A stretch of DNA of 30,257 bases from a virus: positions 1 to 30,257 of IMG/VR virus record IMGVR_UViG_3300021246_000073; one strand, given 5' to 3'. A program made the position numbers and the translations under genes. This document shows positions 7,297-11,328 of this stretch, piece after piece. The stretch's first letter is position 1. Each line of letters opens with the position of its first letter. The notes beneath the pieces were generated by a model, which was not told the origin of the DNA, did not search any database, and saw only the letters and a list, made by a program, of their open reading frames with translations.

Positions 7297-7334
7297 CATA
7301 GAATATAAACCAATTTTTTAAATACAACTACATT

Positions 7335-8626: not shown

Positions 8627-10192
8627 ATGTCAATTCAAACAATTCCTGGGTTAACTGGTTTTACTTATGCAAGAGTAGCGTCTATGGACAAACGTGCTGT
8701 AGGAAAACTTACTGACTCAAATCACTTGGAGTCTTTTCACTCCACAGAGCCAGCTGACTATGATAAAAAAATCATCAGCTTATATACCCAAAGTTCATTG
8801 TATAGCAATGATTTCTTGGATATGATTAACAAGAGTACACCATTCTACATCGACAATAATAGCGATGCATGGAAATGGCAAATTGCTGTACCTTACAAGT
8901 TTCCTAAGATTATCGACATCCCTCAAAGTCTAACAGACATTATTGAAGGTACAGGTAAACCAGGTATTGATGGTCAAGAATTCCAATTAGTATTAGATAC
9001 TAATGAGTTCTCTAAAAATGCTATTGTATCTGTAGGTTCTCGTCAGTATGGTCCAAGATTTTATGTAATCAAAGATCCAACTCCTTGGAATGCTGGATTC
9101 TTATATACATTCAATCTAGTTACAGATAATCCAGTTGTAGATTTCGTAAGTAGCCAATTTTTACAAGTTGGTACTGAACTAGAATTAGTTGATGCTGCTA
9201 TTGGTGAATTTGACCAAGACTTATTAGGATTACCAAGATTGGGTGAGCAAATCACTATGTTCGAATCATTAGGTTCTGCATATGGATATGAGCACAAAAT
9301 CACAGAATGGGCTGATGACAAAATGATGAAAGATGCTTCAGGTAAAGCTCTTGATATCTTAGTATATGCTCCACAAAGACGTAACCAATTACCTTTAACT
9401 CGTAATGATGTTAAATGGGAACCATTCATTGAGTTCTGGATGCGTAAATCTATGTTAGAATTAAAAGTTAAACGTATGATTTGGGCTAAACCAGGTACAG
9501 TTAAAACTGGTGGTGGTAAACAAGAATTGAAACGTACATCTGCTGGTGTTTATCACAGAATGCGTAACAATGGTAACTTAGTACAATATAATAGAGGAGA
9601 ATTCTCTGCTAACTTAATTCGTTCAGTATTTGGAGATCTTTTCTACAGAAGAGTGGATGTTAAAGACAGAAGAGTTAAAATGTACACTAACGAAGCTGGA
9701 TTCGATGTATTCCAACAAGCTTTGAAAAATGATGCATTGAATTCTGGTCTTACATTTATGGCAGATTCTGGAAACAGATATATGCAAGGTGAAGGACAAC
9801 ACATCACTTACAACTTTGCATTTGATGCAATGGTTACACGTGAGACTGGTCGTGTTGAATTAATTCACTTAAAAGAATTAGATTTACCACAATCTAACTT
9901 AGAGTTTGGACAAAACAAAAAATCTACTCCAGTATTCATGGTGTTTGACGTTTCTCCAATGTCTGATGGTTCAATGGTAAACAACATTAGAGAGGTACGT
10001 ATGAAAGGTGCACCTTCTATGACTTGGGGATACATTGATGGTACTCGTCACCACTTAGGTTTTGCTAAGTCTCAAGGTATGAGTTCAGCTAACAAATTCC
10101 CAGGATACGAAATCTGGATGAAAGACAGATGTGACGTATTCATTGAGGATCTTTCAAGAACTGTGTTGATTGAAGAAATCCCACAATTCTAA
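8627..10192 (+). CDS. Major capsid protein (HK97-type, crAss-like)
   Basis: This 521-residue protein builds the icosahedral shell. It follows the scaffold-like gene, has the expected size for a crAss-like major capsid protein, and begins MSIQTIPGLTGFTYARVASM without a membrane segment. Beta-rich stretches dominate, with a long central segment (about 270-290, FIEFWMRKSMLELKVKRMIW) consistent with the spine helix of the HK97 fold. Arginine is often encoded by CGT, whereas other genes here mostly use AGA, which fits very high expression. The leader is AATAATAAAATG without a Shine-Dalgarno. A structured RNA-like segment follows the stop. Assignment rests on context, size and codon use; I did not see a diagnostic short motif. 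Confidence 0.85.
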   Translation: MSIQTIPGLTGFTYARVASMDKRAVGKLTDSNHLESFHSTEPADYDKKIISLYTQSSLYSNDFLDMINKSTPFYIDNNSDAWKWQIAVPYKFPKIIDIPQSLTDIIEGTGKPGIDGQEFQLVLDTNEFSKNAIVSVGSRQYGPRFYVIKDPTPWNAGFLYTFNLVTDNPVVDFVSSQFLQVGTELELVDAAIGEFDQDLLGLPRLGEQITMFESLGSAYGYEHKITEWADDKMMKDASGKALDILVYAPQRRNQLPLTRNDVKWEPFIEFWMRKSMLELKVKRMIWAKPGTVKTGGGKQELKRTSAGVYHRMRNNGNLVQYNRGEFSANLIRSVFGDLFYRRVDVKDRRVKMYTNEAGFDVFQQALKNDALNSGLTFMADSGNRYMQGEGQHITYNFAFDAMVTRETGRVELIHLKELDLPQSNLEFGQNKKSTPVFMVFDVSPMSDGSMVNNIREVRMKGAPSMTWGYIDGTRHHLGFAKSQGMSSANKFPGYEIWMKDRCDVFIEDLSRTVLIEEIPQF

Positions 10193-10202
10193 TAAACATC
10201 AG

Positions 10203-10322
10203 CCTATTCAGGCGACAATAGGAAAAGAATTCCCCTCATCCTCCCAGAGGGGAACCTTTTCAAAAGAGTGATGAATATAGACCACATGTTTATATTGCAT
10301 TCCTTTCGATAGGACCACTCTT
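10203..10322 (+). ncRNA. Structured intergenic RNA element after the capsid gene
   Basis: Three consecutive foldable units fill the gap after the capsid stop. The first is a 6-bp hairpin, CCTATT at 10203-10208 with AATAGG at 10217-10222. An alternative pairing, GCCT/AGGC, exists at 10202-10205/10210-10213. The second is an 8-bp hairpin, TTCCCCTC at 10230-10237 with GAGGGGAA at 10247-10254. The third is a three-way junction closed by AAGAGTG at 10264-10270 and CACTCTT at 10316-10322. Inside it are a 9-bp arm with one bulge (10271-10279 with 10291-10300) and a short TCCT/AGGA hairpin (10301-10304 with 10311-10314). No good U-tract follows the strong hairpin, so a plain terminator is unlikely. 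It could be a processed leader, an RNA-stability element or a small RNA. The pairing is seen; the function is unknown. Confidence 0.5.
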
Positions 10323-10356
10323 CAAATTATAAACCAATTATTAATTAAACTACATT

Positions 10357-11328
10357 ATGGGCAAGTTAGGCAAAATTTCTACAATCAAGAAAGACTATTC
10401 AAATAATACACAATTGCAGACAATGCAAAGTGAGCTTTCAAGAAACAACATGACAAGAATTCCTGGTACAGGAGTTTTCAAATATCCTTATAAGGAATTA
10501 GATGGTCAGTACAGAACAGGGTTAGATCCAAATGCTTCTTATATTAAGAGAATTTCAGATCCAACAGAAAGAGAAATGGAGATGGAAAGAGTTACAAAAC
10601 TTCGTGAGAAGTTAGAATCTGCATTAGGAGATATTGACCTTGGACCAAGATCTAAATTTTGGAACTATGGATTATCTACTTCTACAGATGATGTTACTCA
10701 CGTACAATCTGTAAAATTATTAGATGGAGATAACTATTTTGATCTTAGCGTTCCTTTTCAGGAATTAGCATTTTCATGGTTAAGAGTTCATCCAACTATT
10801 GCAAGTTCTTATCAAGCTTGGGAAAGAGGTGAATATGCTGCAGATATACAATTCTACGTTGTTGATGAAGACATTGAAAGTGGAATAGTATTTAAGAAAA
10901 AACAATTGATTAATAAAGCAATTGTTAAGTTTGATTCTATGACTCCTGAGAAAAAACGTAAAGTTGCAAGACTTTTAGGACTTCCAGTTACAGAAGATAC
11001 TAAAGAAGAGATTGTATATAATCAAGTAGATAACATGTTAAAACAATCAGAATTCAAATCTGGATCATTCCAAGGTTTAAATCCTGTTGAAGTATTTAAC
11101 AGATTTGCTGATATGAAAGAAAACTTGTTACATATTAAAGATTTAGTTAAACAAGCAATTAATCATTCTGTATATAGAATCAAACCAACTGGTAAGGTTT
11201 ATGAAGGAGATTATGAAATTGCTTCAGATGAGGAAGCATTAGTTAAATTCCTTGCAGATGATGATAATCAAGAAGATTTAATTGTTCTTGAACAAAAATT
11301 AAAAACAAAAAAAATAGCTGCTGTATAA
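10357..11328 (+). CDS. Putative head or neck structural protein, 323 aa
   Basis: I do not recognise a named family. The protein is soluble, with a basic N-terminus (MGKLGKISTIKKDY) and conserved-looking central segments rich in aromatic residues (GPRSKFWNYGLS at about 97-108, FSWLRVHPTIASSYQAWERGEYAADIQFYV at 143-172). Acidic helices near the C-terminus are followed by a basic tail, KLKTKKIAAV. Residues about 198-225 (KKRKVARLLGLPVTEDTKEEI) look helix-rich. It sits between capsid and connector genes, so an auxiliary capsid or neck role is likely. Its leader repeats the TAAACCAAT and AACTACATTATGG segments of the scaffold gene leader. The specific role is not known. Confidence 0.7.
   Translation: MGKLGKISTIKKDYSNNTQLQTMQSELSRNNMTRIPGTGVFKYPYKELDGQYRTGLDPNASYIKRISDPTEREMEMERVTKLREKLESALGDIDLGPRSKFWNYGLSTSTDDVTHVQSVKLLDGDNYFDLSVPFQELAFSWLRVHPTIASSYQAWERGEYAADIQFYVVDEDIESGIVFKKKQLINKAIVKFDSMTPEKKRKVARLLGLPVTEDTKEEIVYNQVDNMLKQSEFKSGSFQGLNPVEVFNRFADMKENLLHIKDLVKQAINHSVYRIKPTGKVYEGDYEIASDEEALVKFLADDDNQEDLIVLEQKLKTKKIAAV

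Follow-up and report, generated by a model that had tools for sequence, protein, structure and literature searches.

What is the branched RNA that lies between the major capsid protein gene and the next head-region gene of a crAss-like phage? The locus belongs to IMG/VR record IMGVR_UViG_3300021246_000073, of which positions 1 to 30,257 (30,257 nucleotides, the whole stretch analysed, hereafter the window) form a crAss-like phage fragment, as indicated by the family match of its major capsid protein, with terminase and portal genes upstream in a PHROG comparison. Its third and largest folded unit, a three-way junction at 10264-10322, is probably a place where RNase P and/or RNase Z cut, parting the capsid messenger RNA (mRNA) from the downstream mRNA.

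The 164-base gap after the capsid gene folds at −40.6 kcal/mol, compared with −22.5 kcal/mol for shuffles (z −5.3), with none of 200 shuffles as good. The three folded units described at 10203-10322 by an initial annotation are all found in the sequence, including a 59-base junction with a 7-bp closing stem, a bulged 9-bp arm, and a third hairpin. The parts of this junction, which resembles a transfer RNA (tRNA), are as follows:

10264-10322, plus strand: tRNA-like element (three-way junction), matched by covariance model R1 at 67.3 bits (E 7.5e-16) and supported by covariation
10264-10270, plus strand: 5' strand of P1, an acceptor-like stem of 7 bp, pairing with 10316-10322
10271-10300, plus strand: P2, an arm with a conserved bulged G10297 in place of the D and anticodon arms, from fold and alignment
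10301-10314, plus strand: P3, a T-arm-like 4-bp hairpin with the loop UUCGAU at 10305-10310, from fold and element survey
10316-10322, plus strand: 3' strand of P1, with 12 nt between the end of the T-like loop and C10323
10322-10325, plus strand: N-C-A-A tail in register with N73-C74-C75-A76 of tRNA, from the tail pattern in 133 elements

The comparison set comprises the best 80 of hundreds of IMG/VR relatives found by a capsid search, and the junction lies between the capsid gene and the gene for a 323-residue protein in 80 of 80. P1 is rewritten on both strands among them, reading AGAGUG/CACUCU, AGAAUG/CAUUCU, AGAUGG/CCAUCU, or GAGAUG/CAUCUC. Across 52 distinct sequences, the 17-pair structure has 93.8% of its cells paired versus 30-42% with slid partners, and two-sided changes occupy 157 cells versus 13-32. 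These changes fall in 14 of the 17 modelled pairs, so that the compensatory changes proposed earlier as a check are decisively present for the junction. G-U pairs are frequent in P2, favouring an RNA over a DNA cruciform. Judged from these alignments, the junction is real and strongly conserved at the RNA level.

The covariance model recovers all 80 loci and the window with E values of 2.3e-9 or better and matches 53 further loci, the exceptions being one truncated contig and Leptolyngbya phage Lbo-JY46. Each of the 15 long records (74-119 kb) holds exactly one convincing copy, always on the plus strand after the capsid gene and between co-oriented genes, and no convincing second copy was found elsewhere in the genome. 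A nucleotide search for the element in GenBank phages was empty, and the capsid-gene gaps of Lbo-JY46, phi17:2, crAss001, and ProJPt-Bp1 lack it. At the same place after its capsid gene, crAss001 instead carries a terminator-like hairpin with a U-tract.

Among relatives, P1 mostly spans 6-10 bp and P3 3-7 bp, and P2 is a variable arm whose bulged G sits 3-4 pairs away from the junction (in the window, a 9-bp upper arm and 3 bp with G10297 bulged between them). The stem lengths trade off, keeping the loop-to-tail distance constant: the end of the P3 loop is separated from the tail C by 12 nt in 93 and by 13 nt in 37 of 132 elements, a measure used instead of automatic P3 parsing, which mis-registers ~15 of the 133 elements. 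The corresponding interval in a true tRNA, from the T-loop to C74, is 13 nt (positions 61-73). The spacer between P3 and P1, typically 0-1 nt, likewise resembles the step from T-arm to acceptor stem. The P3 loop begins UU[CU]R in 132 of 133 distinct elements, with A next in ~80% and then usually U. Set at the sequence level against the T-loop motif, which is U-U-N-R-A with a U-turn and a non-canonical U-A pair, UU[CU]R is nearly invariant, the position-5 A is present in ~80%, and the loop has mostly 6 nt, not 7. The tail reads R-C-[A/U/C]-A in most of the 133 elements, and 3' cleavage is predicted next to C10323. By its sequence-derived anatomy, the junction has the layout of a reduced tRNA, composed of an acceptor-like stem, one short arm, and a T-arm-like hairpin.

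The slot between the two genes also accommodates tRNAs. Complete tRNA-Met genes occupy it in L382, L384, L392, and L398 (L numbers designate individual relatives), sharing the register of the element, as do the slot's true tRNAs generally, with mostly 13 nt from the T-loop to the C of C-W-A-A. L204 has a pseudo-tRNA, reported by ARAGORN as 'tRNA-???' with a 6-nt anticodon loop, whose D and T arms resemble by eye those of tRNA-Glu; L380 has a degenerate tRNA-Thr and L394 a tRNA-like form. Intermediates include L185, with a canonical 7-nt T-loop in a T-arm (GUGG-UUCAAAU-CCAC) within a 9-bp outer stem, and L395, in which a 5-bp T-stem capped by a 7-nt loop (UUCGAUU) accompanies one arm and an acceptor-like stem. 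L388 retains a single hairpin of ~12 bp, GGGGGUAGUUA-UUCGUU-UAACUACUUCC, devoid of P2. The contents of the slot thus form a graded series, with a bare minihelix at one end, complete tRNA-Met at the other, and the junction and pseudo-tRNAs in between. Some relatives carry the junction with a tRNA-Met directly 3' of it, and L401, which has a junction in addition to a tRNA, stands outside the seven tRNA-in-slot rows.

In a phylogeny of 72 neighbouring proteins, counting as forced the changes on branches with at least 95% support, these seven rows require seven separate changes, at least four of them forced. The neighbouring proteins of L381 and L382 are near-identical, and both records have the same upstream hairpin and 3' junction sequence UACAAUUAUC, with the three-way junction in the former and tRNA-Met in the latter. 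Decoding is not the property shared by tRNA-Met, pseudo-tRNAs, junctions, and the minihelix; the acceptor/T-arm unit is, and selection therefore appears to favour recognition by processing enzymes. The host would excise true tRNAs from this slot in any case, and the exchanges therefore point to cutting.

The 3' end of the capsid mRNA presents a related question. The element is preceded directly by a hairpin that had been described as an 8-bp GC-rich stem; this stem is present (UUCCCCUC/GAGGGGAA at 10230-10254), and a 6-bp lower stem that had been overlooked, GAAAAG/CUUUUC (10222-10227 with 10256-10261), brings the total to 14 bp:

10222-10261, plus strand: long hairpin directly 5' of the tRNA-like element (6 bp, internal loop, 8 bp), lacking a U-run, from folding and kept in 122 of 122 relatives

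A U-run (UUUU) follows this hairpin in 0 of 122 relatives. An intrinsic terminator, to which the GC-rich hairpin would belong, is rejected on this tally, in agreement with the initial view that the gap lacks a U-tract and is no simple terminator, and the end of the capsid mRNA calls for another explanation. The hairpin likely stabilises that end.

The gene downstream of the element shares its leader with a second gene, as had been remarked earlier: AACCAA-N-AACTACAT-ATG precedes both gene 7335 and gene 10357.

10323-10356, plus strand: leader of the 323-residue protein gene, 34 nt, AAACCAA-N-AACTACATT-ATG, twin of the leader at 7306-7334
7306-7334, plus strand: twin leader of the gene for a 418-residue protein preceding the capsid gene, with promoter-like CTTTG-N-TATACTTTTAC upstream in relatives

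In many relatives, CTTTG-N-TATACTTTTAC ends 6-10 nt upstream of the AACCAA of the 418-residue protein gene, and the distance from the end of P1 to the AACCAA of the 323-residue protein gene is mostly 7-10 nt. This is suggestive of the element occupying the place of the promoter in an otherwise matching twin leader.

In the proposed mechanism, P1 stacked on P3 would mimic the 12-bp acceptor/T-arm helix of a tRNA, complete with T-loop and N-C-N-A tail, and the single variable arm would substitute for the D and anticodon arms. The late transcript would be cut by host RNase P on the 5' side of the element, by RNase Z or a comparable 3' activity next to the N-C tail, or at both places. The capsid mRNA would then end near the strong hairpin at 10222-10261, and the downstream mRNA would start with an unstructured leader like that produced from the late promoter of gene 7335. 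RNase P cuts model substrates consisting of acceptor, T-stem, and T-loop alone, and its ruler measures 12 bp from T-loop to 5' end (PMC11143913). Among the options listed initially, a processed leader is the one we favour. The fold, its conservation, its tRNA geometry, its replacement by tRNAs, and its precise loss in some phages are observed directly; cleavage, the enzyme responsible, and any influence on how strongly the abundant capsid protein is expressed relative to its neighbour are inferred.

Several observations weigh against a processing site. Position 75 is mostly A or U, unlike the RCCA preferred by bacterial RNase P; compared with a true T-loop, the hexaloop lacks one base, and a base other than A fills its fifth position in ~20% of elements. 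The window element has no sequence match to tRNA: the tRNA model RF00005 does not match it, and ARAGORN predicts no tRNA in the window. The element has also been lost in about six lineages (L243, the L206 group, L405, L413, and others), corresponding to six changes on the tree, at least two of them forced. The loss in L243 is a clean deletion, the hairpin continuing straight into the leader. Having no counterpart in these lineages, the element is evidently dispensable. Finally, AACCAA comes and goes in both leaders jointly and independently of the element, including in lineages that lack it, which makes the leader argument only circumstantial; a leader depending on the element is rejected on the same pattern.

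The main rival is an uncut, tRNA-like stability element shielding the 3' end of the capsid mRNA or the 5' end of the downstream mRNA from exonucleases. Its location is suitable, adjoining a conserved strong hairpin between two virion-protein genes, and a tRNA fold would likewise block exonucleases. A plain roadblock, however, needs no fixed 12-13 nt loop-to-tail spacing, no UUCRAU loop, and no N-C-N-A tail, and the exchanges with tRNAs that the host would excise speak for cutting, leaving this alternative unlikely. We regard as rather improbable a degenerate or decoy tRNA kept for an excised small RNA, for instance one occupying host tRNA-processing or tRNA-cutting enzymes, with mRNA processing as a by-product. 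Other odd tRNA-like RNAs and a transfer-messenger RNA (tmRNA) in the phage family, together with real tRNA-Met genes in the same slot, are consistent with it. Yet the element has neither anticodon arm nor anticodon, P2 varies freely, and a single copy at a constant gene junction fits punctuation better than a diffusible product.

A cis-regulatory leader, riboswitch-like or protein-binding, that governs translation of the 323-residue protein gene is very unlikely. The element does lie within the 5' leader of that gene, and its P3 loop shows the kind of conservation that a binding site could have, but the leader is unpaired in the fold with no alternative pairing to the start region, and the element swaps with tRNAs of different identity. 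The translation control considered initially is disfavoured by the unpaired leader and by arm sequences that vary freely. Described riboswitches and ribozymes are likewise rejected, as none of 4227 Rfam families matches the element at gathering or permissive thresholds. A new class of self-cleaving ribozyme, to which a three-way junction with a few invariant bases between two messages might correspond, is scarcely credible, given joining regions without an invariant core and a replacement by tRNA or bare minihelix (L388) that leaves no space for a catalytic core; for a hammerhead-like junction, the expected core is absent by eye.

The remainder of the gap is less constant and lies outside the conserved feature:

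10203-10222, plus strand: hairpin 1, CCUAUU/AAUAGG, lineage-specific and replaced by other modules in most relatives

Hairpin 1 is kept in the nearest relatives only, reading CCUGUU/AACAGG in the closest (L001). Extra structured modules lie between hairpin and junction in L013, L015, L018, L025, L053, L054, and L057; these modules (e.g., AGUGCC..GCACU, ACUUAGU..ACUAAGU, and CUAAAGC..GCUUUAG) are common to relatives in differing combinations. A hairpin with a loop like CC[C/G]UAAGAAC and short closing stems recurs just past the capsid stop codon in L002, L009, L013, L017, and others; absent from the window, it resembles another conserved module of the 3' untranslated region. Open reading frames resembling HNH endonucleases are inserted at the leader in L009, L039, L041, L062, L069, L080, L225, and L414, where several come with the AACCAA..AACTACAT leader in duplicate, and directly after the capsid stop codon in L378, L384, and L394.

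The genes flanking the gap are as follows:

8627-10192, plus strand: major capsid protein gene, 521 residues, Crassvirales type (Pfam Crass_capsid PF23898, E=1.5e-29; PHROG 11589, major head protein)
10357-11328, plus strand: next head-region gene, 323 residues, its position matching crAss001 gp33

The 323-residue product has no family match in protein-family searches. The nearest named relative of the terminase is that of Lbo-JY46 (41%), followed by Cellulophaga phages (~32%), and the capsid protein matches that of Lbo-JY46 at 26%. Otherwise, the lineage is known through environmental contigs, with hundreds in IMG/VR. One relative of the window phage (L253, JACIXZ010000023.1) lies in a contig binned as a Tissierellales (Bacillota) genome, which may reflect misbinning or hint at the host.

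Other tRNA-like RNAs occur in these genomes. The L185 record (G016) contains a cluster of ~20 tRNA genes at 13.6-15.6 kb, most relatives having few or none. Within the record of L012, ARAGORN predicts a tmRNA gene with an unusual 26-residue tag:

L258 (record of L012, 1600-3000), bases 430-822 of L258, minus strand: predicted tmRNA gene

L259 has a tRNA-like 3' end similar to that of the L258 tmRNA. L255, L256, L257, L260, L261, and L262 are tRNA-shaped RNAs (~95-138 nt) whose acceptor, D, and T arms are normal but whose anticodon region is expanded. In the record of L012, similar expanded RNAs lie on either side of the tmRNA; these RNAs may form a second tRNA-like class in the phages.

Parallels come mainly from outside phages. 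Plant mitochondrial t-elements are tRNA-like sequences at mRNA ends, cut by RNase P and RNase Z to set the mRNA termini (PMC11658184). Like the phage element, they are non-decoding and lie at an mRNA boundary; unlike it, they are clear tRNA homologues with a typical tRNA-like structure (PMC11658184), whereas the phage form is mostly acceptor, T-arm, and one arm, and its cutting is inferred. In the mitochondrial punctuation model, tRNAs between messages are excised, freeing the mRNAs (PMC8601606); true tRNAs fill the phage slot in several relatives in a similar manner, but each phage genome has one mark, usually a minimal non-decoding mimic. MALAT1-mascRNA shares an unusual D and anticodon region but is the 3' end of a eukaryotic long noncoding RNA without homology to the phage element (PMC11658184). 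The model substrates AT1 and pMini3bpUG demonstrate that acceptor stem, T-stem, and T-loop suffice for RNase P cutting (PMC11143913), and L388 nearly equals their minihelix; they are designed, whereas the phage elements are natural and evolved, their loop being 6 nt long and their tail reading N-C-[A/U/C]-A in place of RCCA. No phage precedent for such an element was found in the open-access literature. Punctuation of a tRNA-like kind is already known in organelles; what appears new is the setting in a phage, the reduction to a minimal form, and the recurrent swapping with tRNAs.

The element defines a new RNA family overlooked by annotation software. The presence of tRNA genes in phages has long called for an explanation, and codon usage or escape from host nucleases is the usual one. 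With a slot that takes various tRNAs, anticodon-less mimics, or nothing, message processing becomes a third explanation that can be tested directly. We consider it an evenly balanced question whether tRNA-shaped mRNA punctuation extends across the phage lineage, with the slot interchangeably holding tRNAs, pseudo-tRNAs, junctions, and a minihelix, such that some phage tRNA genes may serve processing, not decoding. If so, the phage could adjust the amount of capsid mRNA independently of neighbouring messages, needing neither terminator nor promoter, and minimal RNase P substrates like those designed in the laboratory would occur in nature.
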